DNA of 64,000 bases from positions 1-64,000 of IMG/VR virus record IMGVR_UViG_3300042446_002147. One strand, given 5' to 3'. The notes below the pieces were generated by a model. The model was not told the DNA's origin. It ran no database searches and worked only from the letters and a program-made list of their open reading frames with translations. Both the position numbers and the translations under genes were made by a program. The stretch's first letter is position 1, and each line of letters starts with the position of its first letter. Source of the stretch: a virus. Positions 11,339 to 61,612 of the stretch are shown here, in pieces.

Positions 11339-12100
11339 TTGAAGAATGTCTTAAATTATAATGCTTGGCTTTTCGAAAGCGAAGAGGAAAGAAATGATTT
11401 CTATAAAGAGGAATTAAATAAATCTTTTTGGGAGGACGGTAAATTCGATCCTCATATTAGAAAAAAGCTGTTAACGATAGCTGATGATTTCTATAGTGCC
11501 CTTAAATTCAATGCAAAAATACAAGATATACAATTAACAGGTTCTTTAGCAAATTATAATTGGACTGACAAATCAGATCTTGATGTACATGTTCTTGTTG
11601 ATTTCGAAGAGATAGATGATAATACTGAATTAGTTAGAAGGGCAGTTGATGGAGCTAGATTTATATGGAATCTTAGACACAATTTAAAAATCAAAGGATT
11701 TGACGTTGAACTATATGTTCAGGATATAAATGATTTACATACAGCTTCTGGATTATTTTCTTTATTAAATAATAAATGGATTAGAATTCCTAAGTACAAT
11801 CCTCCAGAAATAGATTACAAAGATGTTGATAAGAAATTTCAAGGATTAGTATCTGATATATTAAATGTTGAAAATATCACAGCAACATCCGATTTTTCAA
11901 ACGTGTCTCCAGAAGAGATATACACATTAGCAGTAAAGTTAAAAAAGAAAATATTAGAAATGAGAAAAGAAGGCCTTTCTCGTTCCGGTGAGTTTTCTGT
12001 AGAGAACCTAGTCTTTAAAAAGTTAAGGAACGAAGGATATATAGAAAAGATCATAGAGTTAATCTCTAAGGCTTATACAAATATTTACAATGAGCAATAA
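11339..12100 (+). CDS. nucleotidyltransferase-fold protein with capsid-targeting-like N-terminus
   Basis: GSLANYNWTDKSDLDVHV (Gly68 onward, Asp80 and Asp82) is the GS...DxD signature of the pol-beta/MNT nucleotidyltransferase fold, and a possible third Asp lies in GFDVELYV. Such enzymes transfer a nucleotide to proteins, RNA or small molecules. The start is TTG at 11339, giving MKNVLNYNAWLFE/S. The L11xE13 followed by Ser matches the pattern shared by neighbouring head proteins, so the enzyme may be packaged and delivered with the DNA, like T4 Alt. That part is inference. The last 50 residues are a Lys-rich helix. Confidence 0.7.
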   Translation: MKNVLNYNAWLFESEEERNDFYKEELNKSFWEDGKFDPHIRKKLLTIADDFYSALKFNAKIQDIQLTGSLANYNWTDKSDLDVHVLVDFEEIDDNTELVRRAVDGARFIWNLRHNLKIKGFDVELYVQDINDLHTASGLFSLLNNKWIRIPKYNPPEIDYKDVDKKFQGLVSDILNVENITATSDFSNVSPEEIYTLAVKLKKKILEMRKEGLSRSGEFSVENLVFKKLRNEGYIEKIIELISKAYTNIYNEQ

Positions 12101-14621: not shown

Positions 14622-14629
14622 GATATATA
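14622..14629 (+). promoter_or_regulatory. GATATATA late-promoter-like motif
   Basis: GATATATA lies 13 bp before the ATG of the protease-scaffold gene, immediately after the stop of the preceding gene, so head protein expression could be boosted here. Confidence 0.5.
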
Positions 14630-14642
14630 AAGAAATAACAAA

Positions 14643-16679
14643 ATGGAAAAAAATCTAGACTACGTATTAATATTAGAAAAATCCTCTAATAATCTTAAGA
14701 CAACTAAAGATGGTGGAGAATATTTCTTAGAAGGTGTAGCTGCTGTATTTGGAGTTGAAAACTCTAATCACAGAATATATGAGGAAAATGAATATCTTCC
14801 TCACCTTGATTACTTAAAGAAAAAAATCGAGCAAAATAGATTAGTAGGTGAATTAGATCACCCTAAAGAGTTTGATGTGTCTTTAAAAAATATTTCTCAC
14901 GTTATTACAGATCTTAACTACGATAAGAATGATAGAAACGTAAAGATCAAGGTAAAACTTTTAGATACACCAGCAGGTAAAATTGCTAAGAGTTTAATTG
15001 ATGCAGGTGTTCCTATTTCTATATCATCTAGAGCAGCTGGTAATGTTAAAGAGAATAAAAAAGTAGAAATTAAGAAAATTTTTACATATGATCTAGTTGC
15101 TGATCCTGGATTCGAAAATGCTCAATTAGAAAGGGTTTACGAAAGTTTAGGATCTCATATGCCATCTGAATCTGTAAAAGATTCAATTATTTCTTCATTA
15201 ACTAATATAAATGAAAGTTTTGGGCTTAGAAAAAATTCTAACACTCAGATATATAGAATAAAAGATACGGAGAAGATCTCTAGACTTTTAAAAGAAAACG
15301 TAAATAATTCAAAGAATATGGACAATAATTTTGTCACTGCAGAAGAACTAAACGAATATTCATTAATCCTTAAAAGGGAAATGGATTCATTAAAAAATGA
15401 ATTAAGATCAGTTTCTAAAGAAACTCCTTCCATAAATAGCGCAAGCGATTCAGGATTAGAAGAAAGAATTCAAAGACTCGAAAAATATTCTGAATATCTT
15501 GCTGAAAATTTAGAATCATCTATTAAGCACGGAGATTATCTTGCAGAGAACTTAGAAGGATCTATTTCTTATAATAAATATTTAGCTGAGAACTTAGACA
15601 AAGCTATTTCCTATGCTAAATACTTAGCAGAGCACGTAGACGGCAATATTTCTTATTCTGAATACATTGCAGATAACTTAGATAATAATATCGCTTATAG
15701 CAAATATTTAGCTGAGAACTTAGATAAAAATATCACTTATTCAGAATATCTTGCAGAGAACTTAGATAAGAATATTTCTTACTCTGAATACCTAGGAGAA
15801 AATCTTGATAGAAACATTTCTTATTCTGAGTATTTAGCTGAAAATTTAGATAAGAACATTTCTTATTCTGATTATCTTGCAGAGAACTTAGATAAGAACA
15901 TTTCTTACTCTGATTATCTTGCAGAGAACTTAGATAAGAATATTTCTTATTCTGATTACTTAGGAGAAAAATTAAACGGAAATATTAACTACTCTGATTA
16001 CATTTCAGAAAAAGTTAAAAATGGTATTGAATACACAGAATACTTAGCAGAGTCTATCAACAACGGTGGAGCTACTAAAAACAATCTTACTAAGAAAGTT
16101 AATGAATCTATTAACGAAGGTAAGAGAACTTCAGGATTCTCTGGAGATTACACAGATCTTTCATCTAAAGTTGACAAATTAATTGAATCTGTTAACACTA
16201 AAAAGACTGATCAAATTATTAACGAAAACAAATATGCTTTCTTAAAACTTGTCGATGACAACACTAAGAAAGGATTTATATCTTTAAACGAGGCCGAAAA
16301 ACAAAAGGTCGTAAAAGCTCTTAATGAGCAGAACTATAATTCGGGTACGGATGTAGTTCAAATTATGGGATCTGCTTTAACTGAACAAGTTAACTCAGGT
16401 GAAAAATTCCTTGATATGATGCCAGCTGATTTAACATCTACATGGGGATCTTTAAATGAATCACAAAAAGCATCAATTATTGCTCAGAGTAAATTCTACA
16501 AATTAGATACTCCTTATCAGATCAATCACTTCTGGAGAACGAGAGGACTTTCTGCACCTGCAGCTAATCTAGAACAGATAAACGAATCCCAAAATATTAG
16601 CAACCCTGTAAATACTGGAGTAAGTAATTCTTACATGCAGAATATTGCAGCAGAGCTAGAAAAAAGATTTAAAAAATAA
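14643..16679 (+). CDS. prohead protease fused to scaffold (gp21-gp22-like)
   Basis: Residues 1-170 match the T4 gp21/herpes-assemblin type prohead protease: GELDHPKEF carries the catalytic His73, and ISISSRAAGNV the catalytic Ser128/129. In T4 the protease and scaffold are separate genes; here the same chain continues into 13-14 tandem 14-residue units (about residues 280-475, consensus YLAENLDKNISYSE) and a C-terminal core-protein-like region of 200 residues. Most units contain LAE, which fits the LxE cleavage rule of T4-type proteases, so the scaffold could be chopped unit by unit after assembly. The N-terminus VLILE/K also has an IxE site. It lies directly before the capsid gene, as expected. 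Confidence 0.85.
   Translation: MEKNLDYVLILEKSSNNLKTTKDGGEYFLEGVAAVFGVENSNHRIYEENEYLPHLDYLKKKIEQNRLVGELDHPKEFDVSLKNISHVITDLNYDKNDRNVKIKVKLLDTPAGKIAKSLIDAGVPISISSRAAGNVKENKKVEIKKIFTYDLVADPGFENAQLERVYESLGSHMPSESVKDSIISSLTNINESFGLRKNSNTQIYRIKDTEKISRLLKENVNNSKNMDNNFVTAEELNEYSLILKREMDSLKNELRSVSKETPSINSASDSGLEERIQRLEKYSEYLAENLESSIKHGDYLAENLEGSISYNKYLAENLDKAISYAKYLAEHVDGNISYSEYIADNLDNNIAYSKYLAENLDKNITYSEYLAENLDKNISYSEYLGENLDRNISYSEYLAENLDKNISYSDYLAENLDKNISYSDYLAENLDKNISYSDYLGEKLNGNINYSDYISEKVKNGIEYTEYLAESINNGGATKNNLTKKVNESINEGKRTSGFSGDYTDLSSKVDKLIESVNTKKTDQIINENKYAFLKLVDDNTKKGFISLNEAEKQKVVKALNEQNYNSGTDVVQIMGSALTEQVNSGEKFLDMMPADLTSTWGSLNESQKASIIAQSKFYKLDTPYQINHFWRTRGLSAPAANLEQINESQNISNPVNTGVSNSYMQNIAAELEKRFKK
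15480..16070 (+). repeat. 42-bp tandem repeat encoding the scaffold rod
   Basis: Thirteen to fourteen units of 42 bp encode 14-residue repeats with consensus YLAENLDKNISYSE. The central units (about 15720-15960) are nearly identical and the outer ones more diverged, which is typical of growth by unequal exchange in the middle. Two heptads per unit would suit a coiled-coil rod whose length could influence capsid size. Confidence 0.9.
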
Positions 16680-16687
16680 TTTAAAAT

Positions 16688-18406
16688 ATGGAACTCTTAA
16701 ATCAAAGTGAGATCTACGAAACGTGGTCTCCAATCATAGAGAGCAAGACCGGTATGACAGATCGTACAAAGGTAGAGTGGTTATCTAAATATTGCCACTT
16801 TCACTCATTAAACGAATCTGCCGGAGCTTATAACACTCTAGGTGCAATGAACGGTATGGGCGCAATCGCTCCTCCAACAAACTACACAGGTGGTGCCGCT
16901 GGTAACGGTCCTGGTGGATTTTACTATAATAATACTTACAACGCTGGTCGTCCATACGTTGGTTCTGGTGATAAATTCCCATCATTACTTCCATTGGCTA
17001 TTCAGGTAGCTGCTAAAACCGTAGGTTTTGACATCGTGCCTGTTATCCCAATGAGTGGTCCTACAGGAGTATTATCTTACTTAGACTACGTATACGCAGG
17101 TGGTACTTTAACTGGATCTTCAACTGATTCTTCAACTAATAACGTTGCTAACACACCAGACGTTATTAAAGTGCCAACAGCAGTAGCTTCTCCAGCAACA
17201 ACTTTAGCTGTAGGTACAGTTTATTACCTTTGGGTTCAAGCTGACGCATCTAAATATGCTACTACTAAATTTGTTGGTTACTCTCGTATCGATGGTTTCC
17301 CAATTTTTAGAGTAACAGCATTAACATCTGGCGATTCAATTGCTGCTGTTGTTACTGCTAATTCAGTTATTTCTACTGCACAAGGTTCAGGTATAGTTGG
17401 TTATTCTAGTAGCTCAGCAACACTTGTTAAAACTTTAGAAGATCATATCCAAGGTTTCTCAGGAACTGGAGATGCTACTGATCCTTTCCAAGGACCTTAT
17501 GTAGATGGTACTACTAACTACGATCCAATGTCAAGAGCACAAGGTGAATCTACTTACTACAAGTCTTTAGGTTTATCTACTTTCACTAAGTTCGTTGAAG
17601 CTGGTACTTTCCAAGTTGCTGCTTCTGTTACTACTGAGCAAATTCAAGATCTTAACAAACAATTCGGTATCGACGTAGTTTCTATGATCGAGAACGCATT
17701 GGTTAATGAGGTTTCTCAAGCTATTAACAAGCACATCTTATCAAGAGGATTTGCTCTTGGATGGTCTAACCACTCTCAATTCTTCTTAACAGAGAATACA
17801 AACCTTAACTTAAACTTAGTTATTGGTGGTCCTGCTACTTATACAGTTCCTAGTTACATCGGTAAAAACGGTCAATCTTTAGGTGCTTCTGCACCAGGTC
17901 CAGTAGCTGGTCCAGCTTCAGGTACTTTTGAGAACTTATCAACAGTTCAAAGAAGACTTTACAGCCGTATCTTAGCAGCTGCTAACGTGGTAGCTAATAG
18001 AGGTCGTAGAGGTCCTGGTAACTTTATCGTTACAAACTCTCAAATTGCGTCTGCATTACAAGACATCAGTCAGTTCACATTCGCTCCATTTACTAACACC
18101 CTTACTCAAAACAACGGTACATTATACCCTGTAGGTTCACTTGCTGGTATGACTGTATATGTTGATCAGAACATGTCATTCGGTGACACTAGAGTATTAG
18201 TTGGTAGAAAAGGTGCTGATGATGAGCCAGGTATGAAATTCATGCCTTACATGATGGCAGAATCAATCCAAACAATCTCTGAAGGTACTATGTCTCCTAA
18301 GATCGCGGTTAAATCTCGTTACTCTTTAGTTGAGGCTGGTCACCACCCAGAAACAATGTATTTCTGCTTCCACATTAATGTTGGAACTGCTACTGCTATT
18401 ATCTAA
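16688..18406 (+). CDS. major capsid protein (gp23-like)
   Basis: This 572-residue protein contains PLAIQVAAKTVGFDIVPVIP followed by MSGPTGVLSYLDYVYAGG, a hallmark of T4-like major capsid proteins. It follows the protease-scaffold gene by 8 bp, as in T4-like head operons. HSLNE/SAG at Glu43 is a plausible maturation cleavage site, with earlier IxE sites at Glu11 and Glu18. Codon use differs from the neighbours: there are many GGT, GCT, AAC, TTC and CGT codons, consistent with very high expression. A strong terminator follows at 18431. Confidence 0.92.
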   Translation: MELLNQSEIYETWSPIIESKTGMTDRTKVEWLSKYCHFHSLNESAGAYNTLGAMNGMGAIAPPTNYTGGAAGNGPGGFYYNNTYNAGRPYVGSGDKFPSLLPLAIQVAAKTVGFDIVPVIPMSGPTGVLSYLDYVYAGGTLTGSSTDSSTNNVANTPDVIKVPTAVASPATTLAVGTVYYLWVQADASKYATTKFVGYSRIDGFPIFRVTALTSGDSIAAVVTANSVISTAQGSGIVGYSSSSATLVKTLEDHIQGFSGTGDATDPFQGPYVDGTTNYDPMSRAQGESTYYKSLGLSTFTKFVEAGTFQVAASVTTEQIQDLNKQFGIDVVSMIENALVNEVSQAINKHILSRGFALGWSNHSQFFLTENTNLNLNLVIGGPATYTVPSYIGKNGQSLGASAPGPVAGPASGTFENLSTVQRRLYSRILAAANVVANRGRRGPGNFIVTNSQIASALQDISQFTFAPFTNTLTQNNGTLYPVGSLAGMTVYVDQNMSFGDTRVLVGRKGADDEPGMKFMPYMMAESIQTISEGTMSPKIAVKSRYSLVEAGHHPETMYFCFHINVGTATAII

Positions 18407-23724: not shown

Positions 23725-25137
23725 ATGTGTGGAATTTTAGTAGCAAAAAGACCAAGTGAGCAAAGAATATTATCCATAGCTCACAGAGGAATAGAACACA
23801 GTACAGTTTATAAAGACGACTTATGCCTAGTACACCACAGACTACCAATTCAAACAGTAGATGGTGATAGTTGGTCACAGCCAATACAAATTGGAGAAGA
23901 CCGATGGTTATTGTTCAATGGAGAGATCTTTAATTACGGAGATTTTGAATCTGACACAGCATATTTACAAAATCTATTCAGTTCTTTTAATTTTGGAAGT
24001 GTTGGTATGCTACAAGCTTTATTTGAACCACATATTGTTGCATGGGATGGCTTTTGGGCTATAACATTAGTTGACACTAAGAAAAGAGAAATATTTGCTT
24101 TCACAGATCCATTAGGAAAAAAATCCCTATACAGAAACGATTCGGGGGAAATATGTTCAGAAATAAAAGGACTATTTGAACCAGGAGAGAATTTACAGAT
24201 TGACGAATCATTTTTTAGTGGTGTTGTAAAATTTGGATATCTTCCTAATGCACAGACACCTATAGCAAATGTTAAAAAATTAGAACCAAATAGATTCTAC
24301 AGATGGAGTTTAGATCATCCAATAAAAGTGGAGGTTTCAGATCCTTATTATAATTTTCATTATTTTGATGCGGGACTAAGAACATATGATGATCGATGTG
24401 ATTGGCTTTTTGAAAAGATGGAAAAATCTGTAGGAGCTAGACTACTATCCAAAAACTACCCTACATCTCTACTTTTATCAGGCGGATTAGATTCTGCAAT
24501 AATTGCGGGGCTTTTATTAAAGCTAGATGCTGATGTTGATTTCTATTCTATTTCTAATGGAGAAGATGAGAAGTATGTAAAAGATTGTGAGTACTACTGG
24601 GATATAGAATCTAAAAGGCTGAACTATTCAATTGATTTAGAAAGTGAAGAAGGTCAAAAAAATCTGAAAGAGATCTATAAAAAATGGAATGAATCACCAG
24701 TTGATATGGGTAGTGTGGTTCCTCAATATCATTTATTTGATGCTATCAAAAAAGGATCTAATACGAGGATTGTAATATCTGGGGATGGAGCAGATGAATT
24801 ATTTGGAGGATATAGAAGAATTAATGAATATGATTCACAGCAATCTGATATCTTTCACGAATTATCTTATTATCATTTACCAAGACTAGATAAGTTATCT
24901 ATGGCTCATACACTAGAATTAAGAAGTCCTTTCTTAAATCATGATATTGTGAGATTTGCTTTGAGTCTTCCTTTTGAAGAAAGAAAGAATAAGAAAATTC
25001 TTAAAGACACATTCAAAGGACTAGTACCAGATTCAGTTATAGAAAGAAGCAAATTAGCTCTTAAGAATACAAAGATTGTTGAGAATCAAATAGAATACAG
25101 AAAAGATATAGTTAAATTATATCTAGGAGATTTATAA
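23725..25137 (+). CDS. asnB: asparagine synthetase, glutamine-hydrolysing
   Basis: This 470-residue protein begins MCGILVAKRP with the catalytic Cys2 of class II glutamine amidotransferases, followed by LFNGEIFNY. The synthetase half has the PP-loop LLLSGGLDSAIIAG and GDGADELFGGYRR. It would make asparagine from aspartate with glutamine and ATP. It is shorter than E. coli AsnB (about 554 residues). Within a glycan-rich phage an alternative is amidation of a sugar acid, as some AsnB homologues in O-antigen clusters do. Its 3' end overlaps the converging RimK gene by 6 bp. Confidence 0.85.
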   Translation: MCGILVAKRPSEQRILSIAHRGIEHSTVYKDDLCLVHHRLPIQTVDGDSWSQPIQIGEDRWLLFNGEIFNYGDFESDTAYLQNLFSSFNFGSVGMLQALFEPHIVAWDGFWAITLVDTKKREIFAFTDPLGKKSLYRNDSGEICSEIKGLFEPGENLQIDESFFSGVVKFGYLPNAQTPIANVKKLEPNRFYRWSLDHPIKVEVSDPYYNFHYFDAGLRTYDDRCDWLFEKMEKSVGARLLSKNYPTSLLLSGGLDSAIIAGLLLKLDADVDFYSISNGEDEKYVKDCEYYWDIESKRLNYSIDLESEEGQKNLKEIYKKWNESPVDMGSVVPQYHLFDAIKKGSNTRIVISGDGADELFGGYRRINEYDSQQSDIFHELSYYHLPRLDKLSMAHTLELRSPFLNHDIVRFALSLPFEERKNKKILKDTFKGLVPDSVIERSKLALKNTKIVENQIEYRKDIVKLYLGDL

Positions 25138-26628
25138 AACTTCTTCTTCGCTATTTCCGTTAGCTTTTATCACTTTAACACCTGCTATTGGATCTCCTTT
25201 AGCATCTTTAGGTGAATAACCTTTAGGTCTATCACTAATAACAAAATCTTCAGAAGGATCTACAATAAGACCAGCAGAACTTAAGAAATCTCTATTAAGT
25301 AATAAAGGTGTACTTTTTTCTGTTCTATCTACTAATGAGAATTTAACTTTCTTGTAAACTATACCATTAAAATCAACATCAAGATTAACTACAGATCTGT
25401 GGTGTATTTTTTCACCTACCTCTGCTCTAGATTGACCTATAATTTTATTTACAAATTCTTGATTTCCTAATTTCCAGTGTACGCTTCCGTCTGTTTCTTC
25501 AATAGAGTCAGCGTGTAAAGAACAAGAGTTAGCTCCATTTCCTGTATCAAGTTTACCAACAAAAGTACCAACCCCTGAAATAGTAACCATCTCTCTAAAT
25601 CCTGCAATTTTTTTAGGTTTAACCCAATTCTTTTTATCTAATAAGAAATCCAATACCATATCAGTTACTGGTATATTCGTTGTTTTTTCTATTCCTGTAG
25701 TACCTGGGGAAGCGTTAACTTCAAGTACATAAGGTTTATTTTCTCTGTTTTTTTCTACAATAATATCTACTCCACACCATAGACATCCAGTAGCTTTTGC
25801 TGATTCAATTGCTATTCTTTCAATCTCCGGAGAAAGCTCTACTGTTTCTGTGTCACCACCTAGTGAGAAGTTAGTTCTAAAATCACCTTCAATTTTGATT
25901 CTTTTCATTGCTGCAATGACTTTGTACTCTCTTCCAGACATACCATCAGATTCAGCAATTACATGTATTCTAAGGTCGTATTCAGCATCAATCTTTTCTT
26001 GTAAAACAATCTCAGTATCTGGTGACAAATACCATAATGCTTGAAGGGTAGATACCAATGAAGGTCTTGAATCTATCATAAAAACTCCGATACCTTTAGT
26101 ACCTGATAGGAATTTACAGACAACTGGATAAGTTCCACCAACATCTTCTAAAGCTTTATCTATATCAGCCTCTGATGATATAAGAGCAGTCTTAGGAACA
26201 GGTATTTTTGCTAATTGTAATTTTCTAGTGGTTTGTAATTTATCTTCACACATGATAACAGAATCATAGGAGTTCACACACGGAAATCCTAAATCTTCCA
26301 TTTTCTTAAAAAATCCTTTAGCTGCATTGTTTTTTATAGCAGATCTTCTTGTAAGAACCACCGTTCTATCTAAATAAATTTCTTGTTGTTTTCCTCCTCT
26401 ACTTGATATTAAAAAAGTTCCTTTAGTTGTTTTTTGTATAGATCCTTTTTCTGTGTCTATAATTATACACCTAACCCCTCTTTCTTCACAGATTTTCATT
26501 ATTTTATCTGTGCTTGGTGCATTTTTTAAACTCCTACCTAACTTTGTGGTAAGGATTACTACTGTCAAGGGCCTTTCTTTTCCTTTTACGCCTTTAAAAA
26601 CAAACTTTTCTAATAGAGGGATATCCAT
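25132..26628 (-). CDS. RimK-like ATP-grasp ligase fused to RimB-like retropepsin domain
   Basis: Residues about 100-335 form an ATP-grasp ligase (VPKTALISS, VVCKFLSGTKGIGVFMID, KPYVLEVNASPGTTGIEKTT), the type that adds glutamate to protein C-termini (RimK on ribosomal protein S6). Residues about 350-480 resemble the RimB/ATP-dependent zinc protease retropepsin family, with the aspartyl motif GKLDTGNGANSCSLHAD. In bacteria rimB and rimK are separate neighbours; here they are one chain of 498 residues. A GATATATA motif sits 5 bp upstream. The gene just upstream encodes a Glu-rich acidic protein, a possible partner or substrate. The substrate is not evident from sequence. Confidence 0.8.
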   Translation of the reverse strand: MDIPLLEKFVFKGVKGKERPLTVVILTTKLGRSLKNAPSTDKIMKICEERGVRCIIIDTEKGSIQKTTKGTFLISSRGGKQQEIYLDRTVVLTRRSAIKNNAAKGFFKKMEDLGFPCVNSYDSVIMCEDKLQTTRKLQLAKIPVPKTALISSEADIDKALEDVGGTYPVVCKFLSGTKGIGVFMIDSRPSLVSTLQALWYLSPDTEIVLQEKIDAEYDLRIHVIAESDGMSGREYKVIAAMKRIKIEGDFRTNFSLGGDTETVELSPEIERIAIESAKATGCLWCGVDIIVEKNRENKPYVLEVNASPGTTGIEKTTNIPVTDMVLDFLLDKKNWVKPKKIAGFREMVTISGVGTFVGKLDTGNGANSCSLHADSIEETDGSVHWKLGNQEFVNKIIGQSRAEVGEKIHHRSVVNLDVDFNGIVYKKVKFSLVDRTEKSTPLLLNRDFLSSAGLIVDPSEDFVISDRPKGYSPKDAKGDPIAGVKVIKANGNSEEEVL

Positions 26629-26703: not shown

Positions 26704-27360
26704 TTAATTAAAGAAATTATCGAATCTTATAACCTTCTCCGAAGTATCATCCTCTTCCTCTTCTAAATCCGATTCGTCCTCTTCTTCAGTGTCATCTTCG
26801 TCATCTTCTTCAGTGTCATCTTCGTCATCTTCTTCTTCGTCTTCTGCTTCGATATCGTCCTCGTCAGATTCTTCTTCGTCTTCTACTTCAATTTCGTCCT
26901 CGTCAGATTCTTCTTCGTCTTCGTCGGATTCTTCCTCGTCTTCGTCAGATTCTTCTTCGTCCTCTTCATATTCTTCTTCGTCCTCTTCAGATTCTTCTTC
27001 GTCAGATTCTTCTTCGTCAGATTCTTCTTCGTCTTCGTCAGATTCTTCTTCGTCTTCGTCAGATTCTTCTTCGTCAGATTCTTCTTCTTCGTCCGATTCT
27101 TCTTCTTCGTCAGATTCTTCTTCGTCAGATTCTTCTTCGTCCTCGTCAGATTCTTCTTCTTCGTCAGATTCTTCTTCGTCAGATTCTTCAGTATCTAGAT
27201 CGTCTAGGTCCTCGTCTTCTTCGTCAGATTCTTCTTCGTCCTCATCAGTTTCTTCTTCCTCCTCTTCTTCTATTTCAGAATCTTGCCAAAAATCATTTTT
27301 TGGCATTTCAGAAGGTTTTCTTGAGTTAAACTCTTCGAATGATAATATTTTTTTATCCAT
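26704..27360 (-). CDS. highly acidic Glu/Asp/Ser repeat protein
   Basis: This 218-residue protein begins MDKKILSFEEFNSRKPSEM. About 160 residues made almost only of Glu, Asp and Ser in units such as ESDEEESDEDEE follow, ending in VIRFDNFFN. The encoding DNA is a GAA/GAC/TCG-type repeat. It is extremely negative and presumably disordered. T4-like heads contain acidic core proteins (gp67, gp68), and the gene lies among head-type genes, so a core or DNA-mimic role is possible. It is directly upstream of the glutamate-ligase-like gene on the same strand. Confidence 0.7.
   Translation of the reverse strand: MDKKILSFEEFNSRKPSEMPKNDFWQDSEIEEEEEEETDEDEEESDEEDEDLDDLDTEESDEEESDEEEESDEDEEESDEEESDEEEESDEEEESDEEESDEDEEESDEDEEESDEEESDEEESEEDEEEYEEDEEESDEDEEESDEDEEESDEDEIEVEDEEESDEDDIEAEDEEEDDEDDTEEDDEDDTEEEDESDLEEEEDDTSEKVIRFDNFFN
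26750..27260 (-). repeat. acidic-codon repeat tract
   Basis: This is a low-complexity tract of GAA, GAC, GAG, GAT and TC(T/G) codons on the minus strand, with recurring blocks of 12-18 bp. Length changes by slippage are likely between relatives. Confidence 0.85.
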
Positions 27361-59236: not shown

Positions 59237-61612
59237 ATGGCAGATTTTTTTGGTGATTTTGGTGACGAGGCCAAAAAATCTTTAAATAGAAAGATAGATT
59301 ATCAAAGGGAAAAATTTCTAAAAGGGATTTCCACCTCTAAGCACGGAAAAAAAGAAGATCCTACATATTTACATTTTAGATTTATCTTTGATGAGGGTAT
59401 TTCTGATCAGATAGATCCTGAGACATTTTTAGCACCATCTCCATTATTTAGCCCTTATAAAAATCCAGCTAAAGCTACAGGTGTTGAAGGTGCAACAGGA
59501 AATGCTGAGCAACCAACCCCGCCTTCTTTTGTAACAGGTGGTTCTAATTTCTTTTATCAATCTAAATTTCGAATTGATGGAATGGAAGGTTTTGGTGCTA
59601 TTGACCCACAAGATGGATATGCTTATATGGGTGCTCAAGAATATTTATTTCAAAGATCTACACAAAGAAGAGATATGCTTAACGCATTCAGAAATGGATT
59701 TCTTTATATAAACAAAAATAGTCCATATTATTTTCAGAGCATATCTGGACTAGATCAATTATTAAAATCTGATATAAAAAACATACACAAAGGAGCAAGT
59801 AAACCACAAAGAATGGGTACTTTATCGATAGATTGTTTAGAATCTATTGATATGAGAATGTTTGCTCTTTCCGAACTTTACAGAAAAGCTATTTATGATT
59901 ATAAATATCAAAGATCAATGCTTCCTGAGAATCTTAGAAAGTTTAGAATGTGGCTGGTTATAACGGAGATTAGAAATATACAATTAAGTTATGGAATTGG
60001 TGATGTGCTAAACCCTTTCTCTATACCTTCGGTTGCAAAAGCTGCTAATGCTTTAGATAGTTTTAATTCACAGACGGGATTTTTGGATAAAATATCCGGA
60101 CTTAATCAAAAAAGTACAAACACAGAAAAAGCTCCTCCAGAAAATAATGCCTTAGGAACCGACGAGTTAGGGCCATATGCTTTTATTTATCAATTTGATC
60201 AATGTGAATTTGATTTTGATGATAGCTATCCATCATATTCCTCTATAGATAATAAAGGAGGTTCAGCAGTGACTAGTAAATTTAAAATACATGTCGGCAG
60301 GGTTAAGGATTATAAAATACAATTCAATCAATTAGCCGATATTATCGGGAAAAACGATAATGTAAAACAAATGGTTATTAATGACACCTGGGGATCTTTA
60401 GGTAGTAGTTATAGAGATTATGATTATGTAGGAACTCAAGGGATATCAGATCTTGTTATGGACGAAAATGATCCTGCTGGGTTTTTTAAAGAGATGGCTT
60501 CCAATTTTATAACTAATACTGTTGCAGATCTTAAGAATATAGGTGTTTCTAAATTAGAAAATGCTTTACTAGGTAACATTTACGGATTAGGTGGATTAAA
60601 TATAGCGTCAGCAGGAAGGAGTGCTTTTTCTGTAGCTAACACATTTAATGATCTTAAGAATAATGGAATACCTGATCCCAGAAAAGATAATTCACCTCAA
60701 GGACAAGGTCTAGGAGGACCAGGGCAAAGACAATATCCCACTATCAACGAAGATGCTTATACCGGAACTTCATCACAAAATAACGAAAATTTAGGAAATG
60801 TTTTAGGTGGTAGTACTAATCCTCCTGGTACATTATCTGGTGATGTTTATCCGAATGTTCCTGGTACAGATTTAGGTGGACCGGATAGGCAATATCCTTC
60901 AAATGATTCGGATGAGTATAATAATGTACCTGGGGCAGATTCGGGTGTACCCGGAAGAGTTTACCCGGTTCCTTCTGGAGATACATACCCCACTGTTCCT
61001 GGTACAGATTTAGGAGTACCTGATAGGCAATACACAACAAATGATTCGGATGAGTATAATAATGTACCAGGCACAGATTCGGGTGTTCCTGAAAGGGTTT
61101 ACCCAATTCCTTCTGGAGATACATATCCCACTGTTCCTGGTGCAGATTTAGGAGTACCCGATAGGCAATATTCACAAGCAGGAGGGGACGAGTATTCTAA
61201 TGTCCCTGGCAGCGATTTGGGTGTGATAGGTAGGGTTTATGATGAACCAGTCGGTGATGTGTATCCTAGCGTACCTGGATCGGATCTAGGAGCACCTGAT
61301 AGACAATATTCACAAGCAGGAGGTAACGAATACCCGGAGCCCGAAATAGGAGTTGCTCCTAATTTTACTAAAGTATACCCAGATGCGGATAATAAATACC
61401 CTAAAGTAAATGACAGGGAATATAAAGATTCAATTAAAGAATTTAATGATAGTATGGGTGATGTTTATAAAAATGTACCAGGACCTGATTTAGGAGGCAA
61501 AGGAAGAAATTATGAATCTATTAGGACGGATGAATATAAAGATATTCCCGCGCAGCCTCAAATTAATTTAGGAAGGACTTATACTAAATCTAATAATTCC
61601 GAAAACTCCTAA
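59237..61612 (+). CDS. baseplate/tail protein with C-terminal Pro-Gly-Tyr repeats
   Basis: This 791-residue protein has an N-terminal 470-residue structural part (THLHFRFIFD-like YLHFRFIFDEGI, FRMWLVITEIRNIQLSYGIG, AFIYQFDQCEFDFDDSYPSY) that resembles tail-tube-type folds (gp19/gp54) only loosely. The C-terminal 260 residues consist of about ten units of 22-24 residues with the core YPxVPGxDLGxPDRQY. It lies between the hub and spike genes, so it probably assembles at the central baseplate or tube start. Function inferred from position. Confidence 0.6.
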   Translation: MADFFGDFGDEAKKSLNRKIDYQREKFLKGISTSKHGKKEDPTYLHFRFIFDEGISDQIDPETFLAPSPLFSPYKNPAKATGVEGATGNAEQPTPPSFVTGGSNFFYQSKFRIDGMEGFGAIDPQDGYAYMGAQEYLFQRSTQRRDMLNAFRNGFLYINKNSPYYFQSISGLDQLLKSDIKNIHKGASKPQRMGTLSIDCLESIDMRMFALSELYRKAIYDYKYQRSMLPENLRKFRMWLVITEIRNIQLSYGIGDVLNPFSIPSVAKAANALDSFNSQTGFLDKISGLNQKSTNTEKAPPENNALGTDELGPYAFIYQFDQCEFDFDDSYPSYSSIDNKGGSAVTSKFKIHVGRVKDYKIQFNQLADIIGKNDNVKQMVINDTWGSLGSSYRDYDYVGTQGISDLVMDENDPAGFFKEMASNFITNTVADLKNIGVSKLENALLGNIYGLGGLNIASAGRSAFSVANTFNDLKNNGIPDPRKDNSPQGQGLGGPGQRQYPTINEDAYTGTSSQNNENLGNVLGGSTNPPGTLSGDVYPNVPGTDLGGPDRQYPSNDSDEYNNVPGADSGVPGRVYPVPSGDTYPTVPGTDLGVPDRQYTTNDSDEYNNVPGTDSGVPERVYPIPSGDTYPTVPGADLGVPDRQYSQAGGDEYSNVPGSDLGVIGRVYDEPVGDVYPSVPGSDLGAPDRQYSQAGGNEYPEPEIGVAPNFTKVYPDADNKYPKVNDREYKDSIKEFNDSMGDVYKNVPGPDLGGKGRNYESIRTDEYKDIPAQPQINLGRTYTKSNNSENS
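60838..61590 (+). repeat. 66-72-bp repeat encoding Tyr-Pro/Val-Pro-Gly units
   Basis: About ten diverged units encode 22-24 residues with a shared core (YPxVPGxDLGxPDRQY). Two unit types alternate: one with DLG and RQY, one with DSG and RVY. The last units are degenerate. The region is likely extended and flexible, or a beta-solenoid-like stalk. Confidence 0.85.

Follow-up and report, generated by a model that had tools for sequence, protein, structure and literature searches.

One continuous ORF of 678 codons occupies positions 14643-16679 on the plus strand of the window, the whole 64,000-nucleotide stretch of viral DNA that was analyzed. The encoded protein of 678 residues starts with a gp21-type protease, continues with 14 units of 14 residues each, all in register, and ends in a helical C-terminal domain. 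In our view, this protein fairly probably serves a huge T4-type phage as the precursor of both prohead protease and scaffold, with an array that is cut and a scaffold that is also started internally. In this model, the gp21-like N-terminal domain would cut after Glu in hydrophobic-x-Glu (hxE), free itself at INE191↓S192 (arrows mark cuts), trim the capsid protein at LNE43↓S44 and cut the scaffold at several C-terminal hNE sites as well as, most likely, once in nearly every 14-residue unit. The uncut array would be a long helical rod, and once cut it would yield about a dozen peptides of 14 residues, which could exit the prohead ahead of DNA entry. Most of the scaffold would probably be made free of protease, from an internal promoter and a start at Met226 that would set the protease:scaffold ratio as in herpesvirus UL26/UL26.5. 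A self-dissolving scaffold is likely.

The fused gene and its relatives

A sequence-only reading of this DNA had described a gp21-like protease continuous with a scaffold, and the single 678-codon frame, together with profile and fold matches, bears this out. The N-terminal part matches Pfam Peptidase_S77 at 42.8 bits (curated cut-off 27), Peptidase_S80 at 35.5 (cut-off 23.4) and PHROG 207, head maturation protease, at 1.4e-38. In addition, its predicted fold resembles the solved structure of T4 gp21, 5JBL (Foldseek E 7.9e-8, TM 0.66 on target). His73, Ser128 and Ser129, which the same reading had assigned to the protease, are all invariant in the 57 aligned relatives. Based on conserved hxE motifs in the capsid protein, the linker and the array, we infer that this protease would show gp21-type cutting after Glu in L/I-x-E.

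14643-16679, plus strand: fused ORF for a prohead protease and putative scaffold, 678 aa (profile matches and full-length relatives)
14643-15152, plus strand: gp21-type serine protease domain, residues about 1-170 (Pfam S77/S80, PHROG 207, Foldseek 5JBL)
14859-14861, plus strand: His73, invariant, in GELDHP (alignment)
15024-15029, plus strand: Ser128-Ser129, invariant, in ISSRAAG (alignment)
15090-15092, plus strand: Asp150, invariant in 57 relatives, candidate third catalytic residue (alignment)
16688-18406, plus strand: gp23-type major capsid protein, with a predicted propeptide cut LNE43↓S44 at about 16814-16816 (Pfam, motif)

The gene order is protease-scaffold-capsid, with the gp23-type capsid gene (Pfam Gp23, 4.4e-40) directly downstream of the fused ORF and no separate gp22-like gene between the two. 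Near the head genes, the window also encodes an asparagine-synthase-like protein (23725-25137) and, on the minus strand, a RimK-type ATP-grasp ligase whose C-terminal segment is retropepsin-like (25132-26628).

The closest named records found by tblastn were the Al-Shayeb huge phages LR756501 (735 kb), LR756502 (642 kb), LR756504, LR745206 and LR756500, with 35-39% identity over most of the protein, followed by the Lak phages; nearer relatives (59-88%) are IMG/VR contigs. The largest Al-Shayeb relatives and Lak make up the Mahaphage clade, the largest members of which are predicted to infect Bacteroidetes (PMC7162821). By sequence similarity, the phage groups with the Mahaphage/Lak huge phages. 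Relatives were collected with a degenerate DNA pattern spanning two successive units, which gave at least 119 stretches. The same fusion of protease, array and C-terminal domain was observed wherever these were full-length, and at least 115 loci had both ends recognized. For comparison we used 61 non-redundant proteins, all with this architecture, in three groups A, B and C; group A includes the protein of the window and group C the 635-735 kb phages. In bacterial genomes the repeat was found on one contig, with the same type of fused gene, and this is probably a phage contig within a MAG. We found no proteomics, transcript or structure for this phage group. Nor did the literature searched yield anything on the making or removal of its scaffolds, on the 14-residue repeat or on nesting of a scaffold gene in this group.

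The 14-residue array and other candidate cut sites

15495-16082, plus strand: array of 14 units, each 14 residues long and in register, Y-[LIV]-A-E↓N-L-D-K-N-I-S-Y-S-E (matrix scan; predicted long helices)
16152-16676, plus strand: helical C-terminal domain, putatively scaffold, with several hNE sites (model pLDDT 71; invariant P, W, F-W and R)
15207-15218, plus strand: putative release site INE191↓S192 at the protease/scaffold boundary (conserved motif)
16578-16589, plus strand: putative C-terminal site INE648↓S, 30 residues before the end (conservation)

The matrix scan identified 13 scored units at residues 285-466 and a 14th, degenerate in-register unit reaching to residue 480. The motif [LI]-x-E is present in 13 of the 14, against 4.1 +/- 1.8 in shuffles (z 5.0), the remaining unit reading IAD. 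This agrees with the earlier count of 13-14 units, most of them with a built-in cut site. The repeat itself thus stands, and only its phase needs changing: it had been written as YLAENLDKNISYSE, whereas cutting after E would make NLDKNISYSDYLAE the chemically relevant unit. The units differ by many synonymous DNA changes (TAT/TAC, GAA/GAG, CTT/TTA), and the protein pattern is therefore held by selection and not only by recent duplication. For the predicted cut products, we computed [M+H]+ values of 1644.775 for NLDKNISYSDYLAE, which is present in two copies, and masses of 1672.806 for NLDKNITYSEYLAE and 3191.480 for the 28-residue fragment across the IAD unit. AlphaFold models the array as long helices at low confidence (pLDDT 40-50), and a helical rod is plausible. 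No further copies of the repeat scoring 12 or more were found elsewhere in the 124-kb record. Other repeats in the window are long 18/36-bp tandem repeats encoding GSSGTSG collagen-like tracts (11-710 and 1084-1323), an acidic low-complexity repeat protein (26704-27360, minus strand) and a 138-bp repeat (60848-61224) within the ORF at 59237-61612.

The array could be a purely structural coiled-coil rod, in which LAE recurs as helix-favouring Leu, Ala and Glu and the units stay uncut. Fourteen residues make two heptads, the model is helical, and Tyr1, Ala3, Ile10 and Tyr12 are also highly conserved, although no cleavage rule needs them; moreover, the module is present in three other proteins. 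We nevertheless consider this reading unlikely because of the behavior of Glu4. When units were gathered with a matrix that ignored positions 2 and 4, Glu4 was the most conserved position of the repeat, ahead of Tyr1 and every other structural position (663 of 673 units, entropy 0.15, Asp once). Position 2 was L or I in 87% of units and V in a further 12%. The other two acidic positions, in contrast to Glu4, vary freely among D, E, N and K (D/E 511/92 at position 7, 54/478 at position 14). A Glu4-Lys8 salt bridge as the cause of this conservation was rejected, since Glu4 is kept equally with K/R at residue 8 (409/414) and without it (254/259). Glu4 also outlasts the decay of the consensus: 20 degenerate in-register units below the scan threshold retain hydrophobic-x-Glu in 18 cases and Tyr1 in only seven. 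Outside the protease-scaffold family it relaxes, position 4 being E/D/N in 6/2/1 units of the three other proteins (Fisher p 0.0004), a small sample with two or three units per protein and two of the three proteins homologous. These contrasts make the constraint on Glu separable from the structural constraint, and in strictness it agrees with the P1 rule already known. The T4 protease gp21 shreds gp22 and cuts behind L/I-x-E, and Asp in place of Glu in the T4 IPIII leader blocks processing and leaves targeting intact (PMC9026906). LAE, proposed earlier to fit the protease rule, is indeed a legal gp21-type site, and it is strongly conserved among the relatives; the outcome that the earlier reading had named as refuting it, a lack of LAE conservation, was not observed. 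The three other proteins with the module are two of ~210 residues with collagen-like GxSG stretches (L034:4650-5294 and L098:8612-9238) and an 85-residue ORF adjoining a fragmentary protease-like ORF (L033:4796-5050).

Candidate sites of the hNE type lie on both sides of the array and in the capsid protein. The linker site (residues 189-192) reads [ILVM]-N-E in 60 of 61 relatives, with S next in 57. The C-terminal site has Glu in 39 of 61, mostly as LNE↓S or LNE↓N, and nearly all relatives carry, around residue 43 of the capsid protein, an [LIM]-N-E with S or N as the next residue; the T4 gp23 counterpart is the cut FLTE65↓A. The fused protein contains eight LNE against 1.2 expected, the highest count of the 124-kb record, and its residues 226-678 contain 23 L/I-x-E against 7.5 in shuffles (z 6.4). 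The motif [LIVMF][FLYN]E[SGN] occurs 18 times within the first 40 residues of proteins, compared with 3.6 expected. N-termini similar to the capsid-targeting sequences of T4, for example MKNLIEYNSFLLES, MTIRKYSQFLAES and MKKIYNFKEFVNES, were observed at window positions 12090, 20634, 21194 and 27626 (minus strand) and at record positions 72470, 82306 (minus strand), 108549, 114269, 116151, 116677 and 118510. Judged by these motifs, the proteins concerned could be internal head proteins that the gp21-type protease also cuts.

It is also conceivable, but about as improbable as an uncut structural rod, that cutting is confined to the hNE sites of the linker, C-terminal domain and capsid protein, and that the array exits as one large fragment. 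The best-conserved sites have Asn at P2 (60/60 at residue 190) whereas array units have Ala, YLAENLDKNISYSD being the array counterpart of the hNE site sequences LNESAG and INESFG. A separate point against cutting in the array is that 12% of units have Val at P3, which departs from the strict L/I rule of T4, but V and M are tolerated at the linker site as well. However, T4 gp22 has six [LIV]AE and L/I-A-E is abundant in gp22 scaffolds; these gp22 sites are putative cuts, and Ala at P2 would then be common in a known substrate. Furthermore, gp21 degrades gp22 to small peptides (PMC9958956), and one capsid-targeting-like N-terminus of the present phage reads FLAES. We prefer cutting in nearly every unit.

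Unit number had earlier been proposed as a possible way to tune head length, and this is not supported. The counts do not rise with genome size, which is only a proxy for head size and makes the counter-evidence weak, but nothing supports a ruler function. Most relatives have 10-14 units; genomes of 735, 642, 636 and 635 kb have 12, 11, 11 and 11, so that the largest carry no extra units, while a 462-kb relative has about five recognizable units and the array is missing from the Lak phages (~540 kb). Neighboring units are spaced by exactly 14 residues in 595 of 612 pairs, which implies that units are gained or lost whole. This, and the narrow range of counts within clades, would speak for a ruler for head length or size, but near relatives differ by one unit or more, and we consider such a ruler very improbable.

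No homology between the C-terminal domain and T4 gp22 was detected (hhalign probability 0.6%). A gp22 homologue was sought with the single sequence and with a 13-member profile, and both failed; a short LxExxKxKV resemblance to gp22 was not significant. No known fold could be assigned either, as the best VIA-align Z of 4.1 is not meaningful for a helical model with pLDDT 71.

A putative start codon within the fused gene

15318-15320, plus strand: putative internal start codon, Met226 (invariant, A-rich upstream)
15318-16679, plus strand: putative nested scaffold-only gene, 453 aa (comparative signatures)
14622-14629, plus strand: GATATATA, promoter-like element preceding the fused gene (concentrated before ORF starts)
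15248-15255, plus strand: GATATATA, promoter-like element within the coding sequence, 62 nt upstream of the internal ATG (exact copy; ATA bias)

The sequence-only reading had a single fusion only, to which a nested start appears to be an addition. About 580 copies of gp22 and 55 of gp21 are used in T4 (PMC9958956), proportions that are out of reach for a plain fusion. Among the relatives, on whose comparison the nested start is based and which are not independent of each other, Met226 is invariant (61/61) within a variable linker. The eight bases from -20 to -13 before its codon contain, across the whole set, 69% A and 2% G, close to the real start (71% and 6%) and far from other in-frame ATGs (38% and 19%). 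A-richness upstream of Met226 ranks first of 670 codon positions, and the synonymous choices there give 491 A against 452.6 expected (sd 5.3). No Shine-Dalgarno sequence was found before the internal ATG, and practically none before the fused gene either.

The element GATATATA is probably late-promoter-like, judging from its distribution: 14 of its 22 copies in the whole record lie no more than 70 nt upstream of an ORF start on the same strand, compared with 0.7 expected. Copies in the window include those at 14622, 18479, 20611 and 54064. Nearly all relatives have ATATATA upstream of the fused gene, and the DNA at Ile203-Tyr204 reads ATATAT in 43 of 61. The Ile203 codon is ATA in 86% of relatives, the next-highest Ile column reaching 40% and the median 10%. 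This bias is extreme in both large clades, with ATA fractions of 0.95 in group A (next best 0.69) and 0.88 in group C (next best 0.60); in clade C the internal element is ATATATG rather than ATATATA. The Lak phages have an ATG at an apparently matching place (MEGVTVNEL).

The invariant Met226, the start-like DNA upstream and the ATATAT element together point to a putative nested scaffold-only gene. By this comparison, the fused gene would also give rise to scaffold without protease, through the start codon it contains. Met226 might instead be an ordinary conserved Met, with protease and scaffold always made 1:1 from a single fusion. The stretch before the internal ATG in the window itself is ordinary (four of eight bases are A), and P2 gpO functions as a plain fusion (PMC7552001). 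Nevertheless, the invariance of Met226 amid variable flanks, the top-ranked A-richness with its synonymous excess, and the promoter-like element make this explanation quite unlikely.

Comparison with known assembly systems

The T4 system resembles the present one in protease family and fold, in the order 21-22-23, in a capsid propeptide that ends in L-x-E and in a gp22 rich in L/I-x-E (16 in 269 residues, against 5.7 in shuffles). All 13 T4-type gp22 proteins examined are enriched in this motif (z 2.6-5.9), and a spacing of one is found 182 times among them compared with 41-92 for other spacings. From these patterns, a scaffold dense in cut sites would be an old T4 feature of which the array is a regularized version. 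T4 differs in having two separate genes, a gp22 without a tandem array and C-terminal domains without detectable homology, and its annotated internal start lies within gp21 itself. What is new here is the tandem single-register array and its fusion to the protease.

Herpesvirus UL26/UL26.5 is similar in that one ORF encodes protease, release site and scaffold, with an in-frame nested scaffold-only gene and a second cut near the C-terminus (PMC12474303), whereas in the phage the cuts are predicted from motifs and the nested gene is putative. The herpesvirus proteases probably belong to another branch of the protease superfamily, match the modelled protease only weakly in structure (Foldseek E 0.2-0.9) and are not accompanied by a 14-residue array. 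They cut after Ala, not Glu. In phage lambda, the Nu3 scaffold is made from an internal in-frame start within the gene of the C protease, a family unrelated to the gp21 type; an array of cut sites is lacking here too. P2 gpO, also an N-terminal protease fused to a C-terminal scaffold, is self-cleaving (PMC7552001), but with 284 residues, no repeat array and another capsid lineage it is an unrelated precedent for fusion.

The same protease fused to a long scaffold with hNE motifs is found in Lak, in pT24 (Tenacibaculum) and in MaF61 (Flavobacterium), but none of these has the 14-residue array, and Lak has an acidic linker in its place. The MaF61 protein (L042:3908-8122) has 1404 residues and 17 hNE motifs. 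Read by eye, Lak and pT24 have the C-terminal P/W/FW/R signature in common with the present protein.

Huge phages must build and then empty very large proheads. In the phage studied here, a single sequence yields predictions for the protease rule, for the release site, for a scaffold-only product and for the precise peptides. We see roughly even chances that the largest known phages have a herpesvirus-like overlapping pair of genes, with a second late promoter and start inside the first, and a periodic rod that is cut every 14 residues into very many near-identical peptides. After the herpesviruses and lambda, this would be the third apparent case of a scaffold gene nested in a protease gene.
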